A stretch of 64,000 nt of DNA from Fimbriimonas ginsengisoli Gsoil 348. GTDB lineage: Bacteria > Armatimonadota > Fimbriimonadia > Fimbriimonadales > Fimbriimonadaceae. The notes beneath the pieces were generated by a model. It was not told the origin of the DNA and ran no database searches. It worked only from the letters and a program-made list of their open reading frames with translations. The stretch lies in assembly GCA_945881865.1 (NCBI GenBank), contig CAMCVK010000001.1, positions 372,001-436,000 on the forward strand. Direction: 5' to 3'. Positions 663 to 62,859 of the stretch are shown here, piece by piece (position 1 is the first letter of the stretch; each line of letters starts with the position of its first letter). A program made the position numbers and the translations under genes.

Positions 663-668
663 TACCCT
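663..668 (+). promoter_or_regulatory. -10-like TACCCT upstream of RNase J
   Basis: The TANNNT hexamer TACCCT ends 8 bases before the ATG at 677, with no Shine-Dalgarno sequence between. It is one member of the recurrent leaderless-type arrangement in this window. Only 20 bases separate atpC from the start codon, so read-through from atp is also possible. Confidence 0.4.
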
Positions 669-676
669 GACGGGGA

Positions 677-2323
677 ATGCCCCAAGTTCAAATTATTCCC
701 CTCGGCGGCGTAGGGGAGATCGGCAAAAACTGCACCGTTGTGCAAGAAGGCGATGACCTACTCATCGTAGACTGCGGCCTGAGCTTTCCCAATGAGGAAA
801 TGCTCGGCATCAACATCGTTGTTCCAGATTTCACTTACCTCGTTCAGAACAAAGATAAGTTCAAAGCGATCTTCCTAACCCACGCGCACGAGGACCACGT
901 TGGGGGACTTCCCTACCTTCTCGACAAACTGCGGGTGCCCATCTACTGCACCGAGTTCACCGCCGCCCTCATTCGCCAAAAGTTGGACGAAAAAGTCGGC
1001 CGCGACAAGTACGATATTCGCATCTACAAACCGGGCGACATCGTCAAAGTCGGCGCGCTCTCGGTAGAGCCGGTTCGAATCACCCACTCGATTCCGGAAA
1101 ACTGCGGCCTAGCCGTTCGTTGCTCCCACGGCATCATTTTCTTCACCGGTGACTTCAAGTTTGACTTCACGCCGGTAGACGGCAAAGCCACCGATATGGC
1201 CCGGTTGAGCGAGCTCGGACGGGAAGGCGTCGTTGCCCTCCTCAGCGACTCGACCAACGTCGAGCGACCAGGCTGGGGCCCCAGCGAGCGGTCCGTCCTC
1301 CCCGGAATGCAGGCGGTTTTTGCCGCCGCCGAGGGTCGCATCCTCATGACGACGTTCGCCAGCAACATCCACCGGATGCAGCAGTTTATGGATGTCGCCG
1401 CTGAATACGGACGCAAAGTCGCGGTCGTCGGTCGCCGGATGGAGCAGAACATCGACACCTGCGAGCGGCTTGGCTACATCAACGTCCCCAAAGGCACGCG
1501 CATCAAGCTTGAAGATCTCGCGCTGTATCCGCCGAACAAGGTCGCCATCCTGACCACGGGCAGCCAGGGCGAACCCATGAGCGCGCTCGTGCAGATGAGC
1601 CGCGGCGAGTACGGCCGGTTACAGATCAAGGCGGGAGACACCCTTGTCTATTCGGCGCGCCCAATTCCAGGTAACGAAGGCGCCATCTGGCGAACGATCA
1701 ACCGACTGTTCCAGCAAGGCTGTCGGGTCATCTACGATTCGCCGATGCCGATCCACGTTTCCGGCCACGCGTACCAGGAGGAGCTGAAGATGATGATCAA
1801 TCTTCTGAAGCCGTTCTACATCGCGCCGGTGCACGGCGAGCCGCGCCACCAGTACCTGTACAACCACATTGCCCGAGAGATGGGCCACCCAGAGCACCGG
1901 ATCTTCACGATGGCCACCGGCGTTCCGTTGAATCTGGACGACACCTCGGCGGCGCTAGGAACAGCCGTCGCGGCGGGCAGTGTTTTGGTAGATAACGCCG
2001 GCACGGCCGGAGTTTCAGACGAGATCCTGCGCGACCGATACAGCGTCGCCAACGAAGGGCTCGTCATCGTGACGGTTCCGGTTGACGTGACGAAGGGCGT
2101 GCTTGCCGGCGACCCGTCCATCATGGCCAAGGCGTTTAGCGGTTCGCCCAAGACCCTGGACATTGCGCTTGACTTCCTGATGGACGCCATGCGAAACCTG
2201 GGACGAGAGGAGCTCCGCGATACCTCCCGCGTGAAAGCAGACGCGGCGGATGCCGTAAAGCGCGCCATTCAGCGGCGCGGCGGAGCCCGACCGTTGGTCG
2301 TGCCCATCGTCATCGAGTTCTAA
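677..2323 (+). CDS. rnj: Ribonuclease J (metallo-beta-lactamase family RNase)
   Basis: A 548-residue RNase J, combining 5'-exonuclease and endonuclease activity in mRNA decay and rRNA maturation in bacteria. The metallo-beta-lactamase core shows the zinc motif HAHEDH at residues 69-74. Further ligands appear in THSIPE (His137) and TGDF (Asp159). The beta-CASP part holds HVSGHA near 359-364 and PVHGEPRH near 387. Length fits the family (about 550-560). Bacillus has two paralogues, J1 and J2; one copy is seen here, so I give only rnj. The gene ends tail-to-tail with a minus-strand gene, overlapping it by 4 bases. Confidence 0.93.
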   Translation: MPQVQIIPLGGVGEIGKNCTVVQEGDDLLIVDCGLSFPNEEMLGINIVVPDFTYLVQNKDKFKAIFLTHAHEDHVGGLPYLLDKLRVPIYCTEFTAALIRQKLDEKVGRDKYDIRIYKPGDIVKVGALSVEPVRITHSIPENCGLAVRCSHGIIFFTGDFKFDFTPVDGKATDMARLSELGREGVVALLSDSTNVERPGWGPSERSVLPGMQAVFAAAEGRILMTTFASNIHRMQQFMDVAAEYGRKVAVVGRRMEQNIDTCERLGYINVPKGTRIKLEDLALYPPNKVAILTTGSQGEPMSALVQMSRGEYGRLQIKAGDTLVYSARPIPGNEGAIWRTINRLFQQGCRVIYDSPMPIHVSGHAYQEELKMMINLLKPFYIAPVHGEPRHQYLYNHIAREMGHPEHRIFTMATGVPLNLDDTSAALGTAVAAGSVLVDNAGTAGVSDEILRDRYSVANEGLVIVTVPVDVTKGVLAGDPSIMAKAFSGSPKTLDIALDFLMDAMRNLGREELRDTSRVKADAADAVKRAIQRRGGARPLVVPIVIEF

Positions 2324-3147
2324 ACGAACAAATTCCTAAGGGCTTCTTCGATCGAAGGGGCCCTTTTGATGACGGTGCGAACGTTTCCGTAGCCCTCCAA
2401 CAGCAGGCGCGCCGCCAGCTCTTGGCCCTCCCGTGCCTTCAGCACGACCGAATCCTCCTCGACCGACATCGAAACGTCGAACGGCTCGCAGATGGCGCGG
2501 ACGGACGCCTGCTGGTTCGTTTCCACGCGGATCTCCTGCGGCGGGCCCAAGCGCAAAAGGTCTTCAACCGACTTTGCAAACCGAATTTCCCGCTCCCGTA
2601 GCACGACGACCGCGTCGCACAGCTTCACAAGCTCAGGGCGATGGGTGGAAAAGAAAATGATTTGGCCGGTAGATCGCCGCCGCTGAAAAGCGGACAGTGT
2701 GCTGGCCAGCGCCCAAGGGTCCAGCTGATCGAACTGCCCGTCTAGGCACAACAACGGCTCTGGCGCGGTGATCGCAGAAAGCAACTCGGCAGAAGCCATC
2801 TGCGTCGGTGAAAGGTCCCCCACCGAAGCGGCGCGCTGATCCCACAAGCGGACGGAAGCCAACAGGTCAGACAGGGCCGAAGCCGCCCCGACTCCACCCG
2901 GTAGCCGAGCCAACGAGGCAACTTTCGAACGGCGATGCACCCCACCGGGCCGGGCAAAGTGGGCGGTGGGACGTTCGATGCGTCCGATGGGAACACGGTC
3001 TAGGCCGGCAAGAATGCGCAAAAACTGGGTTTTGCCGCTGCCCCCGGGACCAACTACGGCGACCCATTGGCCGGGCCGAACCGAGAGCGTGAGCGACGGG
3101 CCGGTGTTCACCAGCGCAAACTGCTGGAGTGAAACCCCGCCCGTCAT
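2320..3147 (-). CDS. Degenerate ABC-type ATPase domain protein
   Basis: A 275-residue protein with an ABC ATPase fold. Walker A is GPGGSGKT (residues about 34-41) and the H-loop is STHRPE. The signature is LSPTQ rather than LSGGQ. Walker B reads LLCLDGQ, so the usual catalytic Glu after the Asp is Gly. The protein may therefore bind ATP but hydrolyse it poorly. About 80 C-terminal residues after the ATPase core resemble accessory domains of export ATPases. The start MTGGVSLQQF lies 2 bases after the M24 peptidase stop; longer upstream frames would run through that gene and are rejected. No permease gene is adjacent. It is the last gene of the five-gene minus-strand operon. Confidence 0.75.
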   Translation of the reverse strand: MTGGVSLQQFALVNTGPSLTLSVRPGQWVAVVGPGGSGKTQFLRILAGLDRVPIGRIERPTAHFARPGGVHRRSKVASLARLPGGVGAASALSDLLASVRLWDQRAASVGDLSPTQMASAELLSAITAPEPLLCLDGQFDQLDPWALASTLSAFQRRRSTGQIIFFSTHRPELVKLCDAVVVLREREIRFAKSVEDLLRLGPPQEIRVETNQQASVRAICEPFDVSMSVEEDSVVLKAREGQELAARLLLEGYGNVRTVIKRAPSIEEALRNLFV

Positions 3148-3149
3148 GG

Positions 3150-4220
3150 TTACGGCAACACCAAAAGCTCTTTTGGCGCGTGGGTCAGCACTTCGACACC
3201 ATCCGCCGTGACGACGACGTCGTCCTCGATTCGAACCCCGCCGAAGCCAGGGATGTAAATTCCGGGCTCGATGGTCCAAACCTGGCCCGGCTCCAGCACA
3301 TCATCGGAAGTCGCGGCAAGGCGACCGCTGTCGTGTACCACGCGCCCAAGACCATGGCCCAGGCTATGGCCAAAGAAGACGTCCCAGCCCTTCTCGGCGA
3401 ACCGCTCTCGCACGCGGGCGTCTAGGTCGCGGGCTCGAACCCCAGGCCGCACGCTTTCCACCGCTTCGATCTGCGCCGATAGCACGGTGTCGTAAAGCTC
3501 GCGGTGCCGGGCGGTGGCGTCTCCGACGACCACGGTTCGGGTGAGGTCGGAGTTCATTCCGCGCCATTTCGCCCCAAAATCCATCGTCAAGAAGTCGCCG
3601 ACTTCCAGCTTCTTCTCGCTCGCCCGGCCGTGCGGGCGGGCGCTTCGCTCGCCGCTGACGACGATCGGCTCGAACGCGATCTCGGCCCCGTTGCGCCGAA
3701 TGAAGAACTCAAGTTCTAGGTTGATATCAAACTCTGAAACGCCAACCTGGATGAGGCGGCGCACGTGGTCAAAGGCGGCGTCGGCCAGCGCGCAGGCTTC
3801 GCGAAGGCCGGCAAGCTCGTCGGGGAATTTGATCATCCGTAGGCCGTCGAACAGGCTGCTGGCCGGTACGAGGGTCACGGCGGGCCACTTCGCCTGCCAC
3901 TTTTCCCACTGCGCGTGGGTGGTCGAAGACGCGTCAAATCCGAGCCGCGTCACGCCAAGCCGGGCCAGAACCTCGGCCAGATAATCGGCAAGCTCTACCG
4001 GCGAGGCAAAAGATTCGGTCGGCATGTTGCCAACCTCCTCCGCCGCCTGAAGGGTGTAGCGGCTGTCCGTTACGAAAACTGCTTCTTTGGCCGTGGCGAT
4101 GACGACGCCGCTGGAGCCTGTAAATCCGGTTAGCCAGCCAACGTTGACTGGATTTGCGACAAGCACGGCATCCACGCCGTCGGGCAAGAGCAACCGTAGT
4201 CGGTCCAAAGCGAGGCTCAT
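3150..4220 (-). CDS. M24 family aminopeptidase (Xaa-Pro peptidase-like)
   Basis: A 356-residue metallopeptidase of the Xaa-Pro aminopeptidase/prolidase type, expected to be cytoplasmic and to remove N-terminal residues preceding proline. The N-terminal creatinase-like domain spans about residues 1-130. The pita-bread catalytic domain carries all five metal ligands: Asp214 (LTMDFGA), Asp225 (NSDLTR), His289 (GHSLGHGLG), Glu318 (TIEPGIY) and Glu332 (RIEDDV). The start codon overlaps the aroQ stop as ATGA. The aroQ-pepP adjacency is common in bacteria (Gram-positives in particular, often with efp next), though efp is absent here. Confidence 0.9.
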   Translation of the reverse strand: MSLALDRLRLLLPDGVDAVLVANPVNVGWLTGFTGSSGVVIATAKEAVFVTDSRYTLQAAEEVGNMPTESFASPVELADYLAEVLARLGVTRLGFDASSTTHAQWEKWQAKWPAVTLVPASSLFDGLRMIKFPDELAGLREACALADAAFDHVRRLIQVGVSEFDINLELEFFIRRNGAEIAFEPIVVSGERSARPHGRASEKKLEVGDFLTMDFGAKWRGMNSDLTRTVVVGDATARHRELYDTVLSAQIEAVESVRPGVRARDLDARVRERFAEKGWDVFFGHSLGHGLGRVVHDSGRLAATSDDVLEPGQVWTIEPGIYIPGFGGVRIEDDVVVTADGVEVLTHAPKELLVLP

Positions 4221-4666
4221 ACGACCTCTTTTCGGTAGTTCAAAATCGCCTGCATCGCCATGATGTAGCCGTACCCGCCGAACCCGACCACCTGGCCAAT
4301 CGTCACCGGCGAGACGACCGAGTGCCGGCGGAATTCTTCGCGGCCGTGAACGTTCGTGAGATGCACTTCAATGACCGGCAGCCGAACGCTGGTTAGCGCA
4401 TCGCGAAGAGAAATCGAGTAGTGCGTGAGTCCGCCCGGGTTGATGACGATGGCGTCGGCCCATCTCCGGTGCTCCTGGATCGTGTCAATGAGAATGCCTT
4501 CCGAGTTCGACTGAAGGATGCGCACCTCAATTCCAAGGTCCTTCGAAGCGTTGCGCAGGTCGTTGTCGATCTCTTCTAGCGGCTTCTTGCCGTAGATATC
4601 TGGCTCTCGAAAACCGGTGAGGTTGAGATTGGGCCCGTGTAGGACGAGTACGCGAATAGAGCTCAT
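4217..4666 (-). CDS. aroQ: Type II 3-dehydroquinate dehydratase
   Basis: A 149-residue type II dehydroquinase that converts 3-dehydroquinate to 3-dehydroshikimate in the shikimate pathway. The family opening LHGPNLNLTGFREPDIYG is present with the catalytic Tyr at residue 25. The SNSEG motif and the substrate-binding region EVHLTNVHGREEFRRHS are intact. Length is typical (about 145-150). The ATG at 4666 overlaps the stop of the preceding Trm112-like gene by 4 bases. Longer upstream frames run through that gene and the glycosyltransferase and are rejected. Confidence 0.95.
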   Translation of the reverse strand: MSSIRVLVLHGPNLNLTGFREPDIYGKKPLEEIDNDLRNASKDLGIEVRILQSNSEGILIDTIQEHRRWADAIVINPGGLTHYSISLRDALTSVRLPVIEVHLTNVHGREEFRRHSVVSPVTIGQVVGFGGYGYIMAMQAILNYRKEVV

Positions 4667-5918: not shown

Positions 5919-6001
5919 CTTTTCGTCACTTCCGGTACCGGCGCGGGAATCATCTTGCCCGTGGAATCGTTCACAATCGTAAGGGTCCGTTCTGGATTCT
6001 T

Positions 6002-6006
6002 AGGAG
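6002..6006 (+). promoter_or_regulatory. Shine-Dalgarno AGGAG deciding a TTG start
   Basis: AGGAG lies 5 bases before TTG at 6012 and fixes the start of the small membrane protein. The longer open frame upstream is antisense to the glycosyltransferase gene and is not accepted. Confidence 0.7.
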
Positions 6007-6011
6007 TTGCC

Positions 6012-6392
6012 TTGAAACGCCGAAAAAAGCCCACCGCCCTTATTGTTGCCCTATTCTTCTTTGCCATGCTGGCCTTCGGCCTGCAGGGCGCACAGTCGGG
6101 GATGTTCCGAGACCTTCAAAAGATGGCGCAGCCCGCCGTGAGTGCCGAGCGACCTAACGACACCTCTAGCACCGACTTCGGCAAGCAGGCAAAAGCCGCC
6201 CTTGGCGACCTCGGAAAGGCGAAGAAGGACGAAAAGGCCGAGGGCAAGAAGGCTGCCGCCGCCGCAATGCGAAACAAAATGGGTGGCGTTCCGATGATGG
6301 CCACACCGAAATCCAGCACATTCAAGGCAAAGCCGAACGATTCGAGCATCGGTACCCAGTGGTACACCGACGAATCGCGCACCTACAATTAA
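6012..6392 (+). CDS. Small single-pass membrane or secreted protein, unknown function
   Basis: A 126-residue protein starting at TTG. A basic N-terminus (KRRKKP) is followed by one hydrophobic segment (residues about 8-24, ALIVALFFFAMLAFGL), which is a signal peptide or anchor. The rest is hydrophilic, with a Lys/Ala/Asp-rich stretch around residues 55-80 and a Ser/Thr-rich tail ending DESRTYN. I do not recognise a family. It converges with the ABC ATPase gene, overlapping by 4 bases around the palindrome TTAA. The good Shine-Dalgarno sequence supports translation. Confidence 0.6.
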   Translation: MKRRKKPTALIVALFFFAMLAFGLQGAQSGMFRDLQKMAQPAVSAERPNDTSSTDFGKQAKAALGDLGKAKKDEKAEGKKAAAAAMRNKMGGVPMMATPKSSTFKAKPNDSSIGTQWYTDESRTYN

Positions 6393-7176: not shown

Positions 7177-7182
7177 ACAGTA
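7177..7182 (-). promoter_or_regulatory. -10-like TACTGT upstream of ABC ATPase
   Basis: On the minus strand TACTGT ends 5 bases before the GTG at 7171. No Shine-Dalgarno sequence fits in the gap, so a leaderless transcript is suggested. Confidence 0.4.
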
Positions 7183-8293: not shown

Positions 8294-8299
8294 AGTTTA
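8294..8299 (-). promoter_or_regulatory. -10-like TAAACT upstream of phyH-type gene
   Basis: On the minus strand TAAACT ends 6 bases before ATG at 8287, with only ACGACC between. This is a clear leaderless-type arrangement. Confidence 0.55.
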
Positions 8300-8365
8300 G
8301 GCGATTCCCGCGCCGGATGAAACATCCATGTCCGAAAACGGCGAGATTAAACTCACCCGATCGAA

Positions 8366-8371
8366 TAGCAT
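8366..8371 (+). promoter_or_regulatory. -10-like TAGCAT upstream of ada-alkA
   Basis: TAGCAT ends 6 bases before ATG at 8378, with no Shine-Dalgarno sequence in GAACCC. The same hexamer at the same distance precedes the genes starting at 40656 and 62860. Confidence 0.55.
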
Positions 8372-15299: not shown

Positions 15300-15305
15300 T
15301 AGACT
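15300..15305 (+). promoter_or_regulatory. -10-like TAGACT upstream of esterase
   Basis: TAGACT ends 7 bases before ATG at 15313. The same hexamer precedes the DinB-like gene at 45509. No Shine-Dalgarno sequence is seen. Confidence 0.5.
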
Positions 15306-19887: not shown

Positions 19888-20179
19888 AAACCAGAATTGT
19901 CCCCGGTTCGATGAAAGTTTCTACGGAACGTCGACGCTTGGAGAACGCGGTCAGCTGGTCATCCCGGCGGAAGCGCGGGCAGAACTCGACATGCAGCCCG
20001 GGGACAAGATTCTCATCATGCGGCACCCGGTCCACCAGGGCCTGATGCTCTTCAAACTTGCTCACGTCCGACAATTTCTGGACGACTTCGCAAACGGTCT
20101 TGCGCGCGTCGAAGCTGACGGCACAGCGTTGCCAACCGAGGAACTCCCCACCAAAAACGTTTCCCAGGAGGAACCATGA
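19874..20179 (+). CDS. AbrB/SpoVT-type transcriptional regulator
   Basis: A protein of about 101 residues with one swapped-hairpin AbrB DNA-binding domain (TLGERGQLVIPAEARAELDMQPGDKILI, residues about 21-48). Such proteins dimerise and bind AT-rich or palindromic operators. The tail ending SQEEP is acidic. It is the first gene of the RND efflux operon and overlaps the TolC-type gene by 4 bases, so it is very likely the local regulator. The start at 19874 fits a -10 box nine bases upstream; 19865 would add MKS and cannot be excluded. Confidence 0.85.
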   Translation: MKIHTNQNCPRFDESFYGTSTLGERGQLVIPAEARAELDMQPGDKILIMRHPVHQGLMLFKLAHVRQFLDDFANGLARVEADGTALPTEELPTKNVSQEEP

Positions 20180-21516
20180 TTCTCAGCACATCCGCACTTG
20201 CCGCCGCACTCGTTCTGATGACCCAGGCCGGCGCCGCCCCGCTCTCGCTCGATCAAGCAATCGCGATCGCCTCGCAGAACGCCTACGATGTCGCGCTCCA
20301 AAGAACCCAGTTAGAAAAGAGCACCAGCCGAGTTCAGCAGGCAAAAAACTCTCTCAAGCCGATCATCGCCGCCAACGGCACCTATCAGAGGTTCGGCAGC
20401 GAGACGTTCACCCAGTCCGGTGGGCAAAACGCCGTCATCGACAGCCGAACGGTTGGCGCTTCGGTCCAAATTCCCATCGACCTAAGCGGAGGCTTCGGTC
20501 GCCAGATTAATGCGGCCCGGCGCTCTCGCGACGCCAGCGCACTGAACGTGGACTCAACGCTCAACATCGTTCGGCTCAGCGTGAAGGCCGCCTACTTCAA
20601 CGTGCTGCAAGCCCAATCGCTGGTCGCGGTCCAGACCCAAGCTCTCGAGCAGAGCCGAGCCCGCCTCAAGCAGGGCGAGCTCCAGTTCAAAGCCGACCAG
20701 ATCGCGCGGGTGGACGTGCAACGCTACCGGGCTTTGGTGTTCCAAACCGAATCGAACCTTCTCAATGCGCAAAACGCCCTCGTGCTGGCAAAGAATGCGC
20801 TCAACGAAACCCTTTCCCGTCCGATTGAAACGCCCGTCGAGGTGGTGGATCTTCCGGAATTGCCAAAGGTTGATATCGAGCCTGCCGACCTGGTCGCGGG
20901 AGCGGTTTCTGTTCGACCGGACGTCCTTTCGGTTGAAGCCACGCTCAAGGCCCTCACCGAAACCCGGCGAGCTGCCGAAACCGGCGACGATCCAACCCTC
21001 TCGGTTGGTTTGAACTGGCAGCGAAGCTTCGCCGCCAACGGTCGCCAAGCCGGCGATACTAACACCACCGGAACGGTCACCTTGTCGATTCCCCTTTTCG
21101 ACCAGGGTCAAACCCGCGAGCGGGTGAAGCAGGCCTGCCTCGACGAGGACGCCACGCGGATCCAACTAAACCAGTTGAAGCTTTCCATCTCGGCGGAAGT
21201 TCGCCGTTCCTTAACCAATCTCCAAAACGCTCGCGCCCGCTACGACAGTGCCGTGGAGCAGGTGAAGCTCGCCGAGGAAGTGTTCCGTATCGCCAGCATC
21301 CGTGAGGATGTTGGGGAAGCCACGTACCTCGAAGTCATCGACGCCCAGACCGACCTCACGTCGGCCAAGAACCAACTCGTTACCACCCGGTACGACGCAT
21401 TGACCGCGTTGGCCCAACTCCAGAAAGCGGTCGGCCGCGACGCATTGCAGGAAGCCGTCGACGCCGCCAAGAAACAAAGCGCCGGAAAAGAGGGCGTCCT
21501 AAAGGTGAACCATTGA
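20176..21516 (+). CDS. TolC-type outer membrane efflux protein
   Basis: A 446-residue outer-membrane channel subunit with a signal peptide (ILSTSALAAALVLMTQAGA). The repeat begins LSLDQAIAIASQNAYDVALQ, the usual OEP opening. Two OEP repeats with long helical segments follow (about 25-210 and 220-430), including LSVEATLKALTETRRAAE and QTDLTSAKNQLVTTRYDAL. It forms the exit duct for the adjacent RND pump. Its presence supports a diderm envelope. It is coupled by overlaps on both sides. Confidence 0.92.
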   Translation: MILSTSALAAALVLMTQAGAAPLSLDQAIAIASQNAYDVALQRTQLEKSTSRVQQAKNSLKPIIAANGTYQRFGSETFTQSGGQNAVIDSRTVGASVQIPIDLSGGFGRQINAARRSRDASALNVDSTLNIVRLSVKAAYFNVLQAQSLVAVQTQALEQSRARLKQGELQFKADQIARVDVQRYRALVFQTESNLLNAQNALVLAKNALNETLSRPIETPVEVVDLPELPKVDIEPADLVAGAVSVRPDVLSVEATLKALTETRRAAETGDDPTLSVGLNWQRSFAANGRQAGDTNTTGTVTLSIPLFDQGQTRERVKQACLDEDATRIQLNQLKLSISAEVRRSLTNLQNARARYDSAVEQVKLAEEVFRIASIREDVGEATYLEVIDAQTDLTSAKNQLVTTRYDALTALAQLQKAVGRDALQEAVDAAKKQSAGKEGVLKVNH

Positions 21517-23000
21517 ACCCACATAAATTCTCCGTAGCGGTCATTGCGCTTGGTCTCGTTTGCACGGCCCTCGTCGGTGGCTGCGTCAACCGCGAAGCCC
21601 AGAAAGCCGCCGTCCAGACCGGAAAGATTCTGAGCGATCCCGACACGACCGTCGAAACCGTTGATGCTACGAGCCGAGACCTGGCGGATACGGTCGAAAT
21701 CACCGGCCAGTTGGTGACCGGAACCGATACCCAGGTTGGCGCGAAGAACAACGGCCGACTTCTACAGGTCTTCGTTGACGACGGCTCCAAGGTAAACGCG
21801 GGCGACATCATCGCCGTGCAAGACACGAATTCGCTCCAGGCCCAGTTGGCCCAAGCCTTTGCGCAGGTTCAAGCCGCCCAGGCCCAGCTTGCGCAGCAGC
21901 AGACCTCGGCCCGGTTGAACCCGGCAAGGAGTTCGGCCGCCGTAAGCCTCGCGCAGGCGTCACTTGGCCAAGCCAAGGCATCGTTGGAGAAGGCCCGGCA
22001 AGGCGCACGTCCGCAAGAGCGGGCTCAGGCCGACGCCAACCTCGCTTCGGCGAAGTCGAACTTGGACACTCAGCAGAAGGAACTCGCGCGACTCAAAACT
22101 CTTGCCAAAGAGGGAGCGATCGCCGCGAACCGGGTTGACGCGCAGCAAAACTTAGTGGCCTCAGCGCAAGCCGCCTACGACTCCTCAAAGCAGACCGTGA
22201 GTTTGCTGAAGGAAGGCACGCGGCGCGAGGACATCCGCGCGTTTGAAGAAGGGGTGCATCAAGCGGAAGAGTCGGTAAGGTCGGCGCGGGCCAACCAAGC
22301 CCTCGACGTTCTCTCGAAGGACCTCGTTGCCGCGGCGCGCGCCAGCGTGGCTTCGGCGGCGGCCAACGTTCGTTTGATTCAGCAACAGATTCAAGACGCC
22401 ACGATTCGCGCTCCCTACGCGGGAACGATTAGCGGCAAGCCGGCCCAAACCGGAACCGTCCTCGGCCCCGGCGGCGTAGTTGCCCAGCTCGTGGGGAACA
22501 GCAATGCGTACTTCGAGGGCCAAGTACCGGAGCAGGTAGTTGAGACGGTGAAGGTCGGCAGCCAGGTCCAAGTGACCATTGACGCGATCAAGAAGACGAT
22601 CACCGGAACCGTCACGTCGCTGAATCCGCTCGGCACCAGCTTCGGACGGTCCTTCAGCGTTCGAATCGTGCTCGCCGGCCTCCCCGCCGACGCCAAGCCC
22701 GGCATGTTCGCCCGCGGCGTGATCACGCTGCGAACGATTCCCGACGCCATCCTGATTCCGGTGACGGCGGTGGTCACGCGAAATGAAAAGCGTGTGGTGT
22801 TTGTCGTCGAAGACGGAAAAGCCAAATCGATTCCGGTGACGCAAGGTCTCCGTGATGCCGGGAACGTCCAGGTGACCGGCATCACCGTTGGCCAGAAGGT
22901 CGTGGTCCGGGGTCAAGAAAGCCTAGACGACGGCAGCAAGGTTAAGGTCGACGACGGCAAGGCCGCCGACGCCGCAACGGAAGGAGAGAAGAAACCATGA
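21513..23000 (+). CDS. RND efflux membrane fusion lipoprotein (HlyD/AcrA family)
   Basis: A 495-residue periplasmic adaptor starting at TTG within the TTGA overlap with the upstream stop; AAAGGTG provides a Shine-Dalgarno sequence. A lipobox (LVGGC, Cys at about 26) indicates lipid anchoring. The order is biotinyl-lipoyl half (about 75-105), a long Ala/Gln-rich coiled-coil hairpin (about 105-285), the second lipoyl half (ATIRAPYAGTISG), beta-barrel and membrane-proximal domains (PGMFARGVITL). The hairpin is longer than in AcrA, which may suit the partner channel. Confidence 0.92.
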   Translation: MNPHKFSVAVIALGLVCTALVGGCVNREAQKAAVQTGKILSDPDTTVETVDATSRDLADTVEITGQLVTGTDTQVGAKNNGRLLQVFVDDGSKVNAGDIIAVQDTNSLQAQLAQAFAQVQAAQAQLAQQQTSARLNPARSSAAVSLAQASLGQAKASLEKARQGARPQERAQADANLASAKSNLDTQQKELARLKTLAKEGAIAANRVDAQQNLVASAQAAYDSSKQTVSLLKEGTRREDIRAFEEGVHQAEESVRSARANQALDVLSKDLVAAARASVASAAANVRLIQQQIQDATIRAPYAGTISGKPAQTGTVLGPGGVVAQLVGNSNAYFEGQVPEQVVETVKVGSQVQVTIDAIKKTITGTVTSLNPLGTSFGRSFSVRIVLAGLPADAKPGMFARGVITLRTIPDAILIPVTAVVTRNEKRVVFVVEDGKAKSIPVTQGLRDAGNVQVTGITVGQKVVVRGQESLDDGSKVKVDDGKAADAATEGEKKP

Positions 23001-26000
23001 ACCTGACCAAGGTCGCAATTGGACGACCGGTTTTTGTTTTGATGCTGATGCTCATCGCAATCGTGATGGGACTCATCGGCTACAGCGCGATGCGCAAAGA
23101 ACAGAACCCGGACGTAAGCTTCGGCATCATCACCGTTCTGGCCGTCTACCCGGGCGCAAACCCAGAAGAGGTCGCGACGCTAGTCTCTCGACCGCTTGAA
23201 GAAGCGGTCTCCGGCGTCAACGGCATTCGAGATGTCACTTCGACCTCGGTCGAAGGCCGATCGATCGTTCAGATCCAGTTCGAAATTGGGTCGGACATGA
23301 ACGTTGGCCTCAACGACGTTCGCGCGAAGGTAGACGGCATCCTCAGCAGCCTGCCGGATGACGTCGAGAAGCCAACCATCGCGAAGGTGGACACGGCGGC
23401 AACGCCGGTTCTCTATATGGCCATGAGTGCCAGCCGAACGTCTTCCCGCGAGCTTCGCACGCTGGTCGACGACAAGCTGAAGGACCGATTTGCCCGTATC
23501 CCCGGCGTCGCCGAGGTCGGTGTTCAGGGCGGAGACATCCGCGAAATCCAAGTCGCGATCAAGAAAGATCAGCTGCTTCGATACGGAATCGGTCTCTCTA
23601 ACGTTCAGCAGGCCATCGCAGCCGCGACGCAAAACGTCCCTTCCGGCCGAGTTATCTCGGGCGACAGCGACGTCAGCGTCCGCGTTCCCGGCGAATTCCA
23701 AAACATCGAAGAGTTGGAAAACCTCGTGTTCTCGGTTGCCGATCCAAAGAATCCGCAGGCGAAGGGCCGACTCATCCGGCTGAAAGACGTTGCCAAAGTG
23801 ACCGACGGCGTGCGAGAGCGCACCGCCTATTCCACGCTGAACGGCACCGACACGATCGTCATGGTTCTCACCAAGGCGACCGAGGGCAATGCCATCCAGA
23901 TCGTGGACCAGGCAAAAGCGCTAGGGAAGGATCTTAAGACCGAGTACAAGTCGATCGGCCTGAACATCGTCAACACGCAGGACCAGGCAAAGCGAATTTA
24001 CGAAGGCCTCGAGGACCTGAACGTGGCCCTCATCTTCGGCATCATCCTCGTCGCGGCCATTGTTTTCATCTTCCTGCACGACTGGCGCGGAACCCTCATC
24101 GTCGTATTGGCGATTCCGACCTGTATCTGCGCGACTTTTGCCGCGCTGAAGATCTTCGGATTCACGATCAACAACCTCACAATGCTTGCGCTTTCGTTGG
24201 CGGTTGGCGTGTTGGTCGACGACGCGATCGTCGTTATCGAGAACATTTATCGTCACCTTAAGATGGGCGAAGACCCGCGCGACGCGGCGGTGAACGGACG
24301 CGCGGAGATTGGCTTGGCGGCCATCGCCATCACGCTTGCCGACGTCGTCGTGTTCCTTCCCCTGGCGTTCGTGGGCGGCATCGTCGGCCAGTTCTTCCGG
24401 CCGTTGGCATTGGCCTACGTCATCGCGGTTCTCTTCTCGCTCTTCGTTTCGTTCACCCTGACGCCGATGCTAGCCTCGCGCTGGTACCGGGCGGGCGAAG
24501 ACATGGAGCACCCGAGAACGCGGTTCGCCGCCTGGTTCGAGCGCATGTTCACGAAGTTCGAGAACGGCTATCGCCGGGTGCTGGAATGGTCGCTCAACCA
24601 CCGCTGGTTCGTGTTCATCTCCGGCAACGTGGTTCTGTTCGCGGTGTTTGTCTTCATCGGAGGCGCTAACCAGCCCGACTTCATGTCGGCGGTCCGAATG
24701 GGCGCGAACGGACTCTATAATGCGGCAGCCGTCTCGGTCGTCGCAATCCTCTGCAACCTGGTCTTCTTCCGCCGGTTCAAGCCGCTGCTGCTGATTCAAG
24801 GCCTCCTTTTCGGGCTTGTGTTCCCGGTCGCGGCCGTGATCGGCTTCCAAACGCACGAATGGAAGAAGGAAGCGGTCTTCAAGTTCCAGTTCTTCCCGGC
24901 AAGCGACACGGGTTCGCTTAACGTGAACATCCAGTTGCCGCCAGGCCGAAACCTTGCTTCGACGGAAGCCGTGGTGAAGCGAGTCGAGGCCGCGATCAAA
25001 GGCGTGCCCGAGATCGAGTTCACCCTTGCTACCATCGGAACCCAAGGCGTCAGCCAGTTCCAGGCCGGAACCTCCGGTTCGAACTACGCCCAGGTCGTCG
25101 TCTCGCTCTACGAAAAGGGAGCATTCCTCGACAAGATCATGTTCTGGAAGAAGCACGAGGGCTTTATCCGTTCTCGCTCAAGCGACGCTGTCTCGGCCGA
25201 CCTTATCCAGCGCATAGGACGCGTTCCGGGTGCAGAGATTCGGGTTGCCGCGGCCGACGGCTTTGGTGCCGGTGGTGCGATCCAGCTATCCCTTTCCGGT
25301 CCAAATCGCGACGTGATCTTGGACACGGCGTCTAAAATCAAGCGTGGCCTGCAGGGTGGTGCCGTCGCGGGAATCATCAACCCCGACATCTCCTCCAAGC
25401 CGGGCAAGCCGGAGCTTCGCGCCGAGCCAGACCGTGTCCGCTTGGCAGATAGCGGGTTGTCCGTGCTTGACCTTGCTCTGGCGCTGCGAATTGCCTATAC
25501 GGGCGATGAGACGGTGAAGTACCGGGAAGCGGGACGCGAGTACACGATCCGCACGATGCTCGATCTCGAAGATCGAAACGACCCGAACATTCTGGCCACG
25601 TTGCCGATTCGTTTCCGGCAGGGTGAAGCGGTCTACGTGAGCTCCGTTGCGGACCTGAAGCCTGGAACCGGCACCGACAAGGTCGAGCGCCGAAACCGCG
25701 CCGAAGAGGTTCGCGTTTCTGCGGACCTGCTCCCCGGTTTTGCCGCGGGAACGGCCTCGAGTCAAATCGACGCGTGGCTCGCGAAAGAGAAAATCATTCC
25801 TGCCGACGTCAAGATTCGCCCTCTGGGACAGGCCGAATCGCAGGCCCGTGAGTCGGCTGGCCTTCTGGCCGCGCTCGTCCTGGGCTTGCTTCTGGTCTAC
25901 ATGGTTCTGGCGTCGCTTTACGACAACCTGCTCTACCCGCTGATCATTCAGCTGGCCCAGCCGCAGGCTTTCGTCGGAGCGATCCTCGCCCTCATCATTA

Positions 26001-26461
26001 CGGACAAACCGTTCAGTCTCATCGGCTTTATCGGGTTGGTCGCCTTGATCGGCCTCGTGGGTAAGAACGCGATCTTGCTGGTCGACTACGCGAACACGCT
26101 TCGGGAACGTGGCCGTAGTCGGCACGACGCGTTGGTGGAATCGGGTCCGACCCGACTTCGACCGATCATGATGACGACCTTGGCCCTGGTTCTGGGAACC
26201 CTTCCGACGGCGCTCGCCATCGGTCGCGGCTCCGAGTTCCGCGAGACCCTCGGCATCATCATCATCGGCGGCATCGCCCTTTCGACCATCCTGACGCTCG
26301 TGGTCATTCCGTGTTCCTACACGATCTTTGACGACGCCAACATCGGTCTCGGGAAGGCGCGACAGAACGTCGCCAAGTTCTTTGGACGCACACCTCCGAC
26401 CCCGCCTGCCCAGCAACCGATGACCCCGGAGGAAGCTCCGGACTCGGTTACGAACGCCTAG
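22997..26461 (+). CDS. RND efflux pump inner-membrane transporter with inserted membrane segment
   Basis: A 1154-residue proton-driven exporter of the AcrB/HAE-1-like class. The proton relay is intact: Asp408-Asp409 in GVLVDDAIVVIEN (TM4) and Lys1023 in GLVGKNAILLVDYAN (TM10). Porter-domain motifs such as FFPASDTGSLNVNIQLPPG are present. AcrB-type pumps are near 1040 residues. Here about 70 extra residues (about 558-628) lie between TM7 and the second periplasmic loop and contain at least two hydrophobic stretches. It is the last gene of the AbrB-TolC-adaptor operon and overlaps the adaptor gene by 4 bases. Substrate unknown. Confidence 0.93.
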   Translation: MNLTKVAIGRPVFVLMLMLIAIVMGLIGYSAMRKEQNPDVSFGIITVLAVYPGANPEEVATLVSRPLEEAVSGVNGIRDVTSTSVEGRSIVQIQFEIGSDMNVGLNDVRAKVDGILSSLPDDVEKPTIAKVDTAATPVLYMAMSASRTSSRELRTLVDDKLKDRFARIPGVAEVGVQGGDIREIQVAIKKDQLLRYGIGLSNVQQAIAAATQNVPSGRVISGDSDVSVRVPGEFQNIEELENLVFSVADPKNPQAKGRLIRLKDVAKVTDGVRERTAYSTLNGTDTIVMVLTKATEGNAIQIVDQAKALGKDLKTEYKSIGLNIVNTQDQAKRIYEGLEDLNVALIFGIILVAAIVFIFLHDWRGTLIVVLAIPTCICATFAALKIFGFTINNLTMLALSLAVGVLVDDAIVVIENIYRHLKMGEDPRDAAVNGRAEIGLAAIAITLADVVVFLPLAFVGGIVGQFFRPLALAYVIAVLFSLFVSFTLTPMLASRWYRAGEDMEHPRTRFAAWFERMFTKFENGYRRVLEWSLNHRWFVFISGNVVLFAVFVFIGGANQPDFMSAVRMGANGLYNAAAVSVVAILCNLVFFRRFKPLLLIQGLLFGLVFPVAAVIGFQTHEWKKEAVFKFQFFPASDTGSLNVNIQLPPGRNLASTEAVVKRVEAAIKGVPEIEFTLATIGTQGVSQFQAGTSGSNYAQVVVSLYEKGAFLDKIMFWKKHEGFIRSRSSDAVSADLIQRIGRVPGAEIRVAAADGFGAGGAIQLSLSGPNRDVILDTASKIKRGLQGGAVAGIINPDISSKPGKPELRAEPDRVRLADSGLSVLDLALALRIAYTGDETVKYREAGREYTIRTMLDLEDRNDPNILATLPIRFRQGEAVYVSSVADLKPGTGTDKVERRNRAEEVRVSADLLPGFAAGTASSQIDAWLAKEKIIPADVKIRPLGQAESQARESAGLLAALVLGLLLVYMVLASLYDNLLYPLIIQLAQPQAFVGAILALIITDKPFSLIGFIGLVALIGLVGKNAILLVDYANTLRERGRSRHDALVESGPTRLRPIMMTTLALVLGTLPTALAIGRGSEFRETLGIIIIGGIALSTILTLVVIPCSYTIFDDANIGLGKARQNVAKFFGRTPPTPPAQQPMTPEEAPDSVTNA

Positions 26462-27090: not shown

Positions 27091-27096
27091 AGCTTA
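27091..27096 (-). promoter_or_regulatory. -10-like TAAGCT upstream of DNRLRE gene
   Basis: On the minus strand TAAGCT ends 6 bases before ATG at 27084, with AGTCAT between. No Shine-Dalgarno sequence is present. Confidence 0.5.
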
Positions 27097-27211
27097 ACGA
27101 ACCGGCTTACCGTTTGCGTCACAGAATTCACCGAAACCTTGTCCAATCCGTCGGTCCTTCTTCCCGATTCCGACTAAACGCCCCGGTTGGGCCGCCAAAA
27201 TAGAAACGGCG

Positions 27212-35054: not shown

Positions 35055-35060
35055 TAACCT
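35055..35060 (+). promoter_or_regulatory. -10-like TAACCT upstream of ECF sigma gene
   Basis: TAACCT ends 8 bases before ATG at 35069. An alternative ECF-type promoter (GGGAACC at 35013, 16 bases, GGTTG at 35036) lies upstream and could give autoregulation. Confidence 0.4.
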
Positions 35061-36509: not shown

Positions 36510-36515
36510 TATACT
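36510..36515 (+). promoter_or_regulatory. -10-like TATACT upstream of outer-membrane-type gene
   Basis: TATACT ends 7 bases before ATG at 36523. The start was chosen independently, by the signal peptide, so this is good support for a leaderless transcript. Confidence 0.55.
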
Positions 36516-36522: not shown

Positions 36523-37353
36523 ATGCGTTCCGCAAATTTGGTTCGGACCTCGATTTCGCTCACGTGCCTCGCCATCGTTTCGATCGCCGGAGCGCAGACG
36601 CTCTCTGGCCCGGGCCAATATCCGCAGTTTCGGAATATGTCGGGCTTTTCGGGCGGCCTCTTTGGTGTCACCCGCGAGGGCATCCCATCCATGCGCGGCG
36701 CGATGGCGATTAGCACGCCGATCGGCTACTCCCTGAGTGACTTCCATGTTGCCCTGGGCTACGCTAGCCAGAGCGTTGATCGACAACTTCGGTTCCCCGA
36801 AAGCAGCGGCGACAGTGCCCGCGCCAACGGAACGGCCCAGGGAATCATCGGCCTGCGCACGAAGTTTGGCAGCCTAGCCTTCTCCGACATGGTCCACAGC
36901 AAACTGGGCGACAGCGTCCTCAACCTCCAGTTCCAATTCAAGACCAGCATTCCCAAGTTCGGCCTCAGCGTTGGCGTTCAGGACGCTTTCTCGACCGGCG
37001 GCGCGGCCGGGCAGGACATCCCGGGCGACGACGAGATCAGTCGATCCTACTGGGTCGCCGCGACCTACGAGTTTGCGCCCGGCGTGCACGGAACGATTGG
37101 GAAGGGAGACCGCCGCTTTAAAGGCGTCTTCGCCAGCGCGAGCGCGAACGTTTCGCCCCGGCTGAAGTTCGTGGCCGAGTACGACACGTTCAACATCAAC
37201 TATGCGGTCTCCTACAACCTGGGACCGTGGAAGCCGTTTGATCCCAAGTACACGCTGAATCCGGAAGACGACAATCGGCGCGGCGACGTCTTCTTGACGT
37301 TCGGCTACATCCGCACGTCGAACATCTTCTGGGGCGTCAACATCACGTTCTAG
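36523..37353 (+). CDS. Probable outer-membrane beta-barrel protein
   Basis: A 276-residue protein with a signal peptide (MRSANLVRTSISLTCLAIVSIAGAQ). The mature part has many alternating short amphipathic strands ending in aromatic residues, such as FGLSVGVQDAF, YWVAATYEFAPG and LKFVAEYDTFNINYAV, and ends in Phe (WGVNITF). These are features of outer-membrane barrels, resembling YjbH-like proteins. No specific function can be named. A start upstream at 36436 would run into the tRNA and is rejected. Confidence 0.7.
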   Translation: MRSANLVRTSISLTCLAIVSIAGAQTLSGPGQYPQFRNMSGFSGGLFGVTREGIPSMRGAMAISTPIGYSLSDFHVALGYASQSVDRQLRFPESSGDSARANGTAQGIIGLRTKFGSLAFSDMVHSKLGDSVLNLQFQFKTSIPKFGLSVGVQDAFSTGGAAGQDIPGDDEISRSYWVAATYEFAPGVHGTIGKGDRRFKGVFASASANVSPRLKFVAEYDTFNINYAVSYNLGPWKPFDPKYTLNPEDDNRRGDVFLTFGYIRTSNIFWGVNITF

Positions 37354-38575: not shown

Positions 38576-38581
38576 TAGAAT
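38576..38581 (+). promoter_or_regulatory. -10-like TAGAAT upstream of secreted hydrolase
   Basis: TAGAAT ends 5 bases before ATG at 38587. The start was fixed by the signal peptide; the in-frame GTG at 38572 would place the box inside the gene. Confidence 0.5.
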
Positions 38582-40008: not shown

Positions 40009-40656
40009 CTATTTGCGGGTAGTGACGGCGGCGGAGATCGTGGTGACTTTGTCGCCTGTCTCCCACTTTGCTTCCACCGAAAACTCTTTGCCGCTGGGCA
40101 GTCGTCCGGTCATGGTCCAGTGCTCCTTTTCGGCGCTCTGGTTCCAGGTCGTTGCCGTTTCGGTTGCCTTGCCTTCGTAAAACTTTCGGACCTCGGCAGG
40201 CTTTGCGGGAGTTGTTCGAACCGAAAGGAGGTTGTCCTCTTTTGCCGAGGAGAATCGCATCGTGGCAACTGTCACCGGCTCTGATCCAGGGAAGAACGGC
40301 GCACCAAATTCAGCCTCACTAAAATTGACGTTGTTTTCGAACTTGCTGTCCTTACCGTCGATCTTGATATCGAGCTTGCCGCCTTTCTCGTCGGCATTGA
40401 TGCTCATGTTGCTGCCATCGCCGCCTTTGGCGTTGAATTTCATCCCGCCTTTATCGCTACCGGCGTCGATGCTGACTCCGCTTCCGTCTTCGCCATTTGC
40501 CTTGAACTTGAAGGAACCCTTGTCGTTATCGGCGTTGATGTTCAACGAGACGCCCGGCTCCGGGGTGGACTGTTTCTCGATCACTTCCGCCGCGCAGCCA
40601 GAAAGCAATCCGGCGGAAACCATAGCGAACAAAACGGCCGAGGTCGTGAATTTCAC
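40009..40656 (-). CDS. Repeat-containing lipoprotein, unknown function
   Basis: A 215-residue predicted lipoprotein starting at GTG. The lipobox is LLSGC (Cys at 21). Residues about 36-105 contain three copies of a roughly 22-residue repeat of the form SINADxDKGxxKFxAxGxDGS, rich in Asp, Gly and Lys with alternating beta-type residues. The C-terminal half (110-215) is a separate domain ending TISAAVTTRK. I do not recognise the family. The promoter is leaderless-type. The gene converges with the hydrolase, 3 bases apart. Confidence 0.7.
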   Translation of the reverse strand: MKFTTSAVLFAMVSAGLLSGCAAEVIEKQSTPEPGVSLNINADNDKGSFKFKANGEDGSGVSIDAGSDKGGMKFNAKGGDGSNMSINADEKGGKLDIKIDGKDSKFENNVNFSEAEFGAPFFPGSEPVTVATMRFSSAKEDNLLSVRTTPAKPAEVRKFYEGKATETATTWNQSAEKEHWTMTGRLPSGKEFSVEAKWETGDKVTTISAAVTTRK

Positions 40657-40662: not shown

Positions 40663-40668
40663 ATGCTA
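40663..40668 (-). promoter_or_regulatory. -10-like TAGCAT upstream of repeat lipoprotein
   Basis: On the minus strand TAGCAT ends 6 bases before GTG at 40656. Hexamer and spacing are identical to those at 8366 and 62848. Confidence 0.55.
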
Positions 40669-45494: not shown

Positions 45495-45500
45495 TAGACT
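45495..45500 (+). promoter_or_regulatory. -10-like TAGACT upstream of DinB-like gene
   Basis: TAGACT ends 8 bases before ATG at 45509, without a Shine-Dalgarno sequence between. Confidence 0.5.
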
Positions 45501-48437: not shown

Positions 48438-48527
48438 CGCATCTCCGCTGAAAAGATGGCAAACTACTGGCGACGGGGCAAGTCATTTCTTGCGCGTCAT
48501 GCGGTTCGAGTCATCGGTTCCGACGTC

Positions 48528-49187
48528 ATGGCAAACATTCCAACCCGGCAACTTTCCGAGCGAGAGCGGCAACTTTTGGAGCTCGCGCGTCAGGGCTTTA
48601 CCGATCAGGCGATTGCGAAAGAGCTAGTAATTAGCGTTCCCACCGTCGCCACGTATTGGGGGAGAATCCGCATCAAGATGGGCCCGCTTTCTCGGCCGGA
48701 GCTCGTCGCCCATTACGTTCAAGCCGAATCGGCCGATCGCATGGACGCACTTCACGCCGAGAACGAATCCTTGCGGAGACGCCTGACCCCCGCAACTGAG
48801 GAAGGTGAACGCGCCGCGCCGTCGTTCGATTCCATCTTAGAACTGATTCGCAAAGCCCCGGACGCCGTCCTCCTGGTAAACCGCCTGGGCGAGATTCTGC
48901 TGGGCAACGAGGCCGCATCAACCCTCTTCGCCTGCCCGATGGAAGACTTCTCGAAGTTGCGCGTGGGTAGCTTCATCCCGCCCGAAGTGCACGAGGTGCA
49001 CCGTGCCCACCGGGAGCAATTTTTCGAAACCGGCGTGCGAAGCCGGATGGGCGATCATCACGGCGTGCAAGCGCAGCGCCTCGACGGATCGAGAATCCGC
49101 ATTACGGCGGCGGTGAGCATGGCCGAAACGCCGCAAGGACCTATCGCCATCGTATTCGCGCGGGAAGCGGAAGAGCCGCATAGGTAG
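48528..49187 (+). CDS. LuxR-type HTH plus PAS regulator, divergent from cydAB
   Basis: A protein of about 219 residues. Residues 5-65 form a LuxR-type HTH (LSERERQLLELARQGFTDQAIAKELVISV, shown in parts: LSERERQLLELARQGF then TDQAIAKELVISVPTVATYW). A PAS domain spans about 105-215 (ILELIRKAPDAVLLVNRLG). The HTH-first order is unusual. It shares the HTH and the PAS type with the two larger sensors at 50.2-53.4 kb. The 90-base gap to cydA suggests it may control respiration, which is inference. ATG at 48456 would add 24 residues; neither start has a clear signal. Confidence 0.78.
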   Translation: MANIPTRQLSERERQLLELARQGFTDQAIAKELVISVPTVATYWGRIRIKMGPLSRPELVAHYVQAESADRMDALHAENESLRRRLTPATEEGERAAPSFDSILELIRKAPDAVLLVNRLGEILLGNEAASTLFACPMEDFSKLRVGSFIPPEVHEVHRAHREQFFETGVRSRMGDHHGVQAQRLDGSRIRITAAVSMAETPQGPIAIVFAREAEEPHR

Positions 49188-49190
49188 CCT
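49185..49190 (+). promoter_or_regulatory. -10-like TAGCCT upstream of BD-FAE-type hydrolase
   Basis: TAGCCT ends 6 bases before ATG at 49197. It overlaps the stop of the preceding regulator gene. Confidence 0.45.
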
Positions 49191-51759: not shown

Positions 51760-51765
51760 ATTGTA
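51760..51765 (-). promoter_or_regulatory. -10-like TACAAT upstream of divergent sensor
   Basis: On the minus strand TACAAT ends 8 bases before ATG at 51751. The inverted repeat CGGCCC/GGGCCG (51753-51774) surrounds it. Confidence 0.5.
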
Positions 51766-59321: not shown

Positions 59322-59336
59322 GACGTGCCGGGCAGG

Positions 59337-61859: not shown

Positions 61860-61867
61860 TACAGCTA

Positions 61868-61873
61868 AGAATA
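61868..61873 (-). promoter_or_regulatory. -10-like TATTCT upstream of Ig-repeat gene
   Basis: On the minus strand TATTCT ends 8 bases before ATG at 61859, a start fixed independently by the signal peptide. Confidence 0.55.
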
Positions 61874-61943
61874 CAATCTCATACCGGCAGCGTTGCAGGG
61901 GATTCGCGTTTCTTAACAATTCGCCCCGTGCCAAACTCGGAGG

Positions 61944-62819
61944 ATGAGAATCCTTGTCACCGGGGCCGGCGGAAACATTGGTCGCGGCCTCGTTCCCCGT
62001 TTGGTCGCCGCCGGGCACGAGGTCGTGCTGTCGGACGTAAACCGCATCGACCACGGCGACTTGCCGTTCCACCAAGTCGATATCCAGCACGGATTCGGGC
62101 TAGAAAAGGCGGCCGAGGGTGCCGACATGCTGATTCACCTCCCGGCCTGGCACGGCATCCACTGGGGTCAAAAATCCGAAGCCGACTACTGGCGGCTGAA
62201 CGTGGACGGAACGTTTTGGGCGTTTCAGGCGGCGCGAAGCCAGGGCATTTCGCGGGTGGTTTTCCTTAGTTCGACCGCTTGGTATGGCCACTACGACAAG
62301 TACGGGTTCACGAAGCGCATCGGCGAGGAGCTTTGCGAATACAACCGCCGCAACCACGGCACTCGGTATGTCGCGGTGCGGCCGAACGACCTAACGCCCT
62401 GGGGCGACGACTGGCTGAACGGCTACGGAACCCGCCTACTGTACGGCGGGGTCGATCGCGAGGACGTATTGGATTGCGTTGCGCTGGCTGCCGAACGGTT
62501 GGTCCGACCGCTAGAAGGCGATGCCGAAGGCATCATCGTCGAAGCCTTGAAGCCGCCGACTTTCACGGAAGCCGATGTCGCCGACTGGGAGTCGAACCCG
62601 GAAGCCGCTTTCGCCCGCCTCTTTCCCGGTTACGAAGACCTGGTCGAAATCTATCGCCTTCGCATTCAACGCAAGCCCTCACCATCGGGATCACGGCTCG
62701 GCTGGGACGAAGTCGGTTACGCCCCGAGCCGACACTACGGCACCTTTCTCGCCGAACTCCGCCAAAAGCATGAGGAACTTGGCGAATCGGCGGTGCGGGC
62801 GCTGCGCTGTCCGTACTAA
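61944..62819 (+). CDS. NAD-dependent epimerase/dehydratase (extended SDR)
   Basis: A 291-residue cytoplasmic nucleotide-sugar-type epimerase or dehydrogenase. The Rossmann motif is VTGAGGNIGRGL (residues 5-16). The catalytic region is SSTAWYGHYDKYGFTKRIGE, with the YxxxK pair. GGAGG lies directly against the start codon, too close to act normally. CAAACT six bases upstream matches the leaderless geometry. The next gene starts 40 bases later with its own promoter. Confidence 0.85.
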   Translation: MRILVTGAGGNIGRGLVPRLVAAGHEVVLSDVNRIDHGDLPFHQVDIQHGFGLEKAAEGADMLIHLPAWHGIHWGQKSEADYWRLNVDGTFWAFQAARSQGISRVVFLSSTAWYGHYDKYGFTKRIGEELCEYNRRNHGTRYVAVRPNDLTPWGDDWLNGYGTRLLYGGVDREDVLDCVALAAERLVRPLEGDAEGIIVEALKPPTFTEADVADWESNPEAAFARLFPGYEDLVEIYRLRIQRKPSPSGSRLGWDEVGYAPSRHYGTFLAELRQKHEELGESAVRALRCPY

Positions 62820-62847
62820 AAGGGAACCAAGCGCGACAAAAAACGGA

Positions 62848-62853
62848 TAGCAT
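62848..62853 (+). promoter_or_regulatory. -10-like TAGCAT upstream of tricorn-like gene
   Basis: TAGCAT ends 6 bases before ATG at 62860, the same box and spacing as at 8366 and 40663. Confidence 0.55.
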
Positions 62854-62859
62854 AGCGGG

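Follow-up and report, generated by a model that had tools for sequence, protein, structure and literature searches.

TANNNT boxes adjoining start codons point to leaderless gene expression in Fimbriimonadaceae

In a 64,000-nt stretch of bacterial DNA (hereafter the window; positions 372001–436000 of contig C1, host genome 3.23 Mb, 98% complete), many genes that seem to begin a transcription unit carry a TANNNT hexamer a few bases before the start codon. Are these boxes -10 promoter elements placed so close to the coding sequence that the mRNAs lack a leader, and is this a habit of the whole lineage? The host is taken as a member of the Fimbriimonadaceae (Armatimonadota); the RNase J encoded in the window is 71–72% identical to its counterparts on the five best named contigs, i.e., four from uncultured Armatimonadetes and one from Fimbriimonas sp. 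Overall, the architecture is real and family-wide; it is of a kind already known, and we found no report of it for this family. The boxes very probably represent -10 elements that adjoin start codons and give leaderless mRNAs, beside Shine-Dalgarno initiation in operons.

Boxes at a fixed distance from start codons

We evaluated the position of TANNNT in the window and 400 kb beside it (464 kb, 14% of the genome). A coding-potential model blind to upstream signals called 382 genes in this set, 220 of which were unit-first, i.e., had a divergent neighbor at least 20 bases away or a same-strand neighbor at least 50 bases away. An earlier note on this DNA had tied its proposal of leaderless genes to a genome-wide positional peak of TANNNT, and such a peak was present here. 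With a spacer of 6 bases between box and start codon, TANNNT preceded 27 of the 220 unit-first genes, compared to a mean of 3.3 at other positions, and this combination ranked at the top of 1,984 motif-position pairs (64 words × 31 positions; z 13.0, next 5.5). Spacers of 5–8 held 42/220 genes against 11.0 expected, and spacers of 4–9 held 53/220, where 300 dinucleotide shuffles averaged 12.8 (s.d. 3.7, maximum 23). When starts were treated tolerantly, TANNNT was found for 36/220 genes and other A/T-only words for 8 to 14/220; in-frame coding words (e.g., CTNNNC) inflate this test.

Motif discovery without prior knowledge of the box gave a consistent picture. A blind expectation-maximization (EM) search recovered GgtA.acT with a mode at spacer 6 and a log-likelihood ratio of 113.8, compared to 26.6 in shuffled sequence and 60.2 in upstream control DNA; the fitted weight, 0.62, is probably an overestimate. 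Scored-box counts reached 0.30 in the host's unit-first genes vs 0.06 in control windows when the score was trained on the same genes, and 0.25 vs 0.06 (G088) and 0.28 vs 0.06 (G103) in two genomes on which it was not trained. Independently of any annotation, GGTANNNT-N6-ATG occurred 77 times in the whole host genome, with 21 occurrences for an N12 control and 38 for the backward-read word.

Within the window, the 12 boxes and spacers that the earlier note had named match the sequence exactly, and these are given here with five more:

663–668, + strand: -10 box TACCCT preceded by GG, 8 bases before ATG 677 (RNase J)
6052–6057, + strand: box TATTCT, spacer 8, before 6066 (start from coding potential only)
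7177–7182, - strand: box TACTGT, spacer 5, before GTG 7171 (a weak box, perhaps due to chance)
8294–8299, - strand: box TAAACT, spacer 6, before ATG 8287
8366–8371, + strand: box TAGCAT, spacer 6, before ATG 8378 (Ada/AlkA-like protein)
15300–15305, + strand: box TAGACT, spacer 7, before ATG 15313
27091–27096, - strand: box TAAGCT, spacer 6, before ATG 27084
27196–27201, + strand: relaxed box CAAAAT, spacer 10, before ATG 27212 (MutS2); the TAGAAA listed in the earlier note lies just downstream
35055–35060, + strand: box TAACCT preceded by GG, spacer 8, before ATG 35069
36510–36515, + strand: box TATACT, spacer 7, before ATG 36523
38576–38581, + strand: box TAGAAT, spacer 5, before ATG 38587
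40663–40668, - strand: box TAGCAT, spacer 6, before GTG 40656 (GAGG in the spacer)
45495–45500, + strand: box TAGACT, spacer 8, before ATG 45509
49185–49190, + strand: box TAGCCT preceded by GG, spacer 6, before ATG 49197; its TAG (49185–49187) is the stop codon of gene 48456–49187
51760–51765, - strand: box TACAAT, spacer 8, before ATG 51751 (our caller preferred start 51454)
61868–61873, - strand: box TATTCT, spacer 8, before ATG 61859
62848–62853, + strand: box TAGCAT, spacer 6, before ATG 62860 (gene extends beyond the window end)

The counts drawn from these boxes needed some correction. About 38 unit-beginning genes had been claimed, at least 15 of them with a strict box at spacers 5–8; our gene calls and unit-first rule give 33, with 11 strict boxes at the coding-potential start and 14 when in-frame starts from -90 to +60 are tolerated, one of which (48392) looks like chance. 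The quoted chance rate of 3% per gene was slightly low, since we measured 2.75/220 genes per spacer, i.e., 5% over four spacers. Even so, the claimed excess stands, with 11/33 against the 5% background corresponding to p = 3e-7. Eight boxes are common to the 12 named earlier and our 11 coding-potential hits. The box at 40656 is matched only with an alternative start; 51751, for which our caller chose a start 297 bases further downstream, is not in our count; and starts 49197 (gap 9), 62860 (gap 40) and RNase J 677 (gap 20) fall outside the unit-first rule.

The window also contains an RND efflux operon (20176–26461; TolC-like protein, adaptor and 1154-aa permease). Its first gene follows a Shine-Dalgarno sequence (AGGAGG), in contrast to the putatively leaderless genes nearby.

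Start signals and conservation at orthologous genes

Pooling across the family, 137 of 782 unit-first genes carried a strict box at spacers 5–8 (hereafter TA-led). Shine-Dalgarno words were found before 4 of these 137 genes, compared to 130/645 other unit-first genes (p = 4e-8) and 105/327 inner genes; in the host genome alone, they preceded 40/124 inner vs 32/220 unit-first genes. The absence of a Shine-Dalgarno sequence from the spacer, as asserted in the earlier note, thus holds in general and fails at 40656, where GAGG is present. TTG start codons were depleted among TA-led genes (2/137 vs 52/645, p = 0.003). Such a depletion is expected if the start codon is also the transcription start, because RNA polymerase prefers a purine there.

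No -35 peak was detected across the 137 TA-led genes, in line with the earlier observation that no such box was obvious: TTG had 15 counts at spacing 15–19, where the most enriched triplet was GAC (18 vs 8.5). The clearest extra signal was GG directly before TA (G at 0.50 and 0.58), and the most constant box bases were the A and T of TAnnnT. The 16S rRNA tail of the host reads GGATCACCTCCTTA, with an intact anti-Shine-Dalgarno. Given this intact tail and the higher frequency of Shine-Dalgarno words in inner genes, two start modes, leaderless and Shine-Dalgarno, appear to coexist.

These features suggest a mechanism in which the boxes would serve as -10 elements of the housekeeping (sigma-70-type) sigma factor, with consensus GGTAnnnT, in which positions -11 (A) and -7 (T) vary least. 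If the first base of the start codon is also the first one transcribed, a spacing of 6 would place the last T right at -7, and an mRNA without a leader would therefore follow; spacings of 7–11 would leave a leader of a few bases. Transcript 5' ends are thus predicted to lie at the start codon. Ribosomes, forming no Shine-Dalgarno helix, would then begin on a 5'-terminal AUG or GUG, and operon-internal genes and part of the unit-first genes would use ordinary Shine-Dalgarno initiation.

The boxes could also be followed across orthologous genes of the family, most clearly for RNase J. There, GGTANNNT precedes the start codon at spacings of 6–16 in 31 of 34 unique family loci. When these 31 loci were aligned on TANNNT, which makes TA and the last T constant by construction, GG was present in 31/31 and the inner C's in 30 and 29 (the third box base being C in 30), with flanking columns mostly <0.3 bits. 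Two of the three misses (L109 and L110) have CANAAT boxes, and L018 has neither box. The start codon is at the equivalent of RNase J residue 1 in 21 of 22 family loci. At L022, titled Fimbriimonadia, GGTATACT stands ~34 bases before the start codon of RNase J, with a Shine-Dalgarno-like word in the interval; this arrangement resembles the same promoter in leadered form. One further locus (L044), on a contig titled Methanoregulaceae archaeon, encodes a Fimbriimonadaceae-type RNase J preceded by GGTACCCT; this contig was probably wrongly binned.

MutS2, detected in 58/61 family genomes, had CANAAT at spacer 4–16 in 24 of the 30 loci compared and TANNNT alone in 4 more (28/30); no start codon was found near the two loci without a box. 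CANAAT was found at spacer 17–54 in 0/30 loci. For the Ada/AlkA-like protein, present in 7/61 family genomes, 3 of 6 relatives (L245, L246 and L250) have an in-frame start nearby that is preceded by TANNNT with spacer 6. The protein at 36523 occurs in 26/61 family genomes; among the 14 compared, only the nearest relative (L252) is close, with TATACT at spacer 7, and the rest match from residue 9 or later and are thus of little use here.

A separate element accompanies the Ada/AlkA-like gene: GTCCGAAAAYGGC (window 8330–8342), 35 bases before 8378, is kept in 5 of 7 loci (window, L245, L246, L248 and L249), and is perhaps an operator for the gene's own regulation.

Distribution across Armatimonadota and stop codons as part of boxes

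We then evaluated the same signals in relatives. In eight other family genomes, 96/562 unit-first genes had a strict box at spacers 5–8 (24.2 expected) and 102 had Shine-Dalgarno words, with 47/562 at spacer 6 against a mean of 8.4 elsewhere. A blind EM search recovered ggTA.aaT in these genomes (weight 0.38, mode spacer 6), GGTA.AAT in G013 (weight 0.42), and AGGAG in a pool of seven other families. Eighteen family loci around RNase J on named contigs, whose gene content overlaps, gave 35/156 vs 7.4. The seven-family pool had 16/342 at spacers 5–8 vs 15.4, with Shine-Dalgarno words in 147; it includes G056 of family f21, for which the sampled 100 kb gave 3 vs 2.0 and the whole genome was positive in the phylum survey described below (150 vs 51). 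For G088, the first 100 kb showed no strict peak (1 vs 1.5) and 300 kb showed one (25 vs 6.6). No excess was found at nine Chthonomonadaceae-like loci (3/50 vs 3.5) or, through the same pipeline, in an E. coli control (6/87 at spacers 5–8 vs 7.5).

To cover the phylum, GGTANNNT-N6-ATG was compared to N12, with the same words and frame, in an even draw of 121 genomes with completeness of at least 85%. In family f1, which we infer to be the Fimbriimonadaceae, the counts were 989 vs 383 across 17 genomes; all 17 ratios were at least 1.79, and 12 genomes were individually significant after Bonferroni correction. The suggestion of a lineage trait is thus borne out, with the qualification that the family is not its sole carrier: f13 had 1209 vs 434 in 9 genomes (6 significant) and f21 had 738 vs 286 in 6 genomes (4 significant). 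Two genomes of one f13 genus (G013 and G071) displayed surpluses of 5.7 and 7.0 times, far above the window's own family. The remaining 89 genomes from 32 families totaled 4968 vs 4677, with little or no surplus in most. One of these, G028 (f15), was significant at 31 vs 6; its 100-kb sample, of 71% GC, gave 2 vs 1.4 at spacers 5–8. It is a possible third clade, based on small numbers. Smaller surpluses in f23 (439 vs 349), f14 (148 vs 107) and f31 (165 vs 124) included no individually significant genome. Outside the phylum, five genomes (Bacillus, Orenia, Sporobacter and two Chloroflexi) showed no surplus (89/117, 110/113, 49/48, 44/41 and 63/58).

A tree of RNase J unites f13 and f21 (99/98), apart from f1. 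This single-gene tree therefore places the predicted leaderless habit in two separate clades; the habit may have been gained twice or lost often.

The shared stop codon at 49185–49187 appears to be part of a wider pattern. Among 786 same-strand gene pairs in nine family sets, 16 had a gap of exactly 9 bases, compared to 4–9 for each of the other gaps from 5 to 14 (gaps 3 and 4: 18 and 13). At gap 9, a TAG or TAA stop was followed by T three bases on in 11/14 cases vs 15/64 at other gaps of 5–20 (p = 2e-4), resulting in the arrangement TARnnT-N6-start. With named loci added, this became 12/15 vs 16/70 (p = 5e-5), one gap-9 site being common to G118 and G047, so that not all sites are independent. 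In other families, the overlap was seen in 0/2 gap-9 pairs. These data leave evenly balanced, in our judgment, a broader proposal: that Fimbriimonadaceae reuse a stop codon as the TA of the next -10 box, allowing a leaderless unit to begin 9 bases on without promoter DNA of its own, and that two clades independently acquired or retained the leaderless habit while most other families rely on Shine-Dalgarno initiation. In the passages of open-licence papers that we consulted, we found no case of a stop codon overlapping a -10 box; if true, the shared element would make for a very compact promoter.

Alternatives, known systems and significance

Several observations weigh against a leaderless interpretation or limit its reach. 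The strict excess is modest, at 31/220 genes over background, and 136 of the 220 unit-first genes in the host set have neither strict signal. Inner genes at gaps of 0–20 also carry TANNNT at spacer 6 (18/164), and the scored box reaches 0.18 in the host's inner genes vs 0.04 in control windows; the boxes at close inner genes are partly explained by the overlap of the stop codon with the box, and those at gaps of 0–20 may be internal promoters. Further upstream of 97 Shine-Dalgarno-led genes, GGTANNNT showed no surplus (6 at spacer 12–105; permuted words ~7), so that these counts gave no sign of the same box at leadered promoters. In the phylum survey, the backward-read control came nearer to the observed counts than N12 did (606 for f1, 449 for f13 and 330 for f21). 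Spacing at RNase J is loose, from 6 to 16 bases, and some mRNAs may accordingly carry short leaders. Finally, orthologue pairs defined by synteny gave a weak signal, the box being present in the partner in 4/11 pairs with a boxed unit-first gene in the host vs 6/30 pairs without one, in a small set of 131 pairs of which 41 include a unit-first gene of the host.

Could the box instead be a ribosome-binding signal within longer leaders, either a non-Shine-Dalgarno ribosome-binding site (RBS) or a GGUGA-like word pairing with 16S rRNA? It sits at the position of an RBS, GGTA resembles the GGTGA that is able to pair with UCACC of the 16S tail, and the close inner genes carry it as well. However, overlapping operon-internal genes need an RBS equally, yet have TANNNT at spacer 6 in 1/163 cases, and it is in inner genes that Shine-Dalgarno words are commoner. 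The 16S tail also fails to explain why the A and T of TAnnnT vary least, and in Deinococcus the same motif is not replaceable by an RBS, according to the portions of PMC12340547 considered here. We regard a ribosome-binding role as very unlikely. The boxes might, on the other hand, be true -10 elements with the real start codons further downstream, so that the mRNAs have ordinary leaders: our starts were picked by coding potential, and the L022 arrangement at RNase J has just this form. Yet it is relative to the coding-potential start that the peak appears, TA-led genes almost entirely lack Shine-Dalgarno words ahead of it, and the RNase J start is equivalent in all but one of the family loci compared, which makes displaced starts very unlikely. 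Chance, or the base composition of AT-richer intergenic DNA, would yield single boxes in ~5% of genes over four spacers and still applies to some of them (7171 and 48392). As a general account it is refuted, and we give it next to no probability, because the peak is sharp at one spacing and lacking at its neighbors, other A/T-only words fall far below TANNNT, and the pattern is repeated in eight further family genomes and in whole-genome counts.

The interpretation as -10 elements of leaderless genes has close parallels elsewhere. For Deinococcota, a -10 motif adjoining open reading frames was described by Zhong et al. 2025 (PMC12340547), citing de Groot 2014 on D. deserti. In the portions of that paper considered here, nearly a third of D. 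radiodurans genes have a TANNNT that ends ~6–7 bases upstream of their start codon, the -10 box alone suffices, and leadered genes have a separate GGAG motif. The parallel with Deinococcus drawn in the earlier note is apt: through the same pipeline, a D. deserti plasmid gave 13/82 at spacers 5–8 vs 2.0 expected, and GG before TA is also present (6 and 7 of 14), which led us to drop GG as a difference between the two groups. A count of GGTA words on this plasmid (3 vs 3) came from a sample too small to tell. The differences are that Deinococcota are another phylum with experiments to draw on, our own evidence being that of sequence, and that those portions of PMC12340547 describe no stop codon overlapping a box. 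TA-led bacterial genes reported by Zheng et al. 2011 (PMC3160421) are likewise similar, with a TA-like signal ~10 bases upstream that takes the form TAnnnT in high-GC groups; Armatimonadetes are not named in the Results section considered here. Mycobacterium and Corynebacterium share the TANNNT -10 element and leaderless genes, with a less conserved -35 in C. glutamicum, and differ in belonging to the Actinomycetota and in having mapped 5' ends, as far as the parts of PMC6448022 and PMC3890552 considered here describe them.

The main text of a 2017 Nucleic Acids Research paper (PMC5397173) makes no mention of Armatimonadetes or Fimbriimonas. Among the open-licence papers that we sampled, we found no report of leaderless expression in Armatimonadota or Fimbriimonas. 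The GeneMarkS-2 paper reportedly may classify such genomes. On such a scale, leaderless expression is best known, from the literature sampled, in Actinomycetota, Deinococcota and archaea.

A 2024 survey (PMC10783764, in the part considered here) lists Shine-Dalgarno genes at 25% in Fimbriimonadia and 70% in Chthonomonadetes, which fits the distribution observed here, and a leaderless habit may explain the low Fimbriimonadia value. In practice, a leaderless model should be used to call gene starts and promoters in such genomes, and in expression constructs for Fimbriimonas the -10 box should directly adjoin the start codon. A phylum that holds both families using leaderless expression and families hardly using it would also offer a natural comparison for switches in translation initiation.

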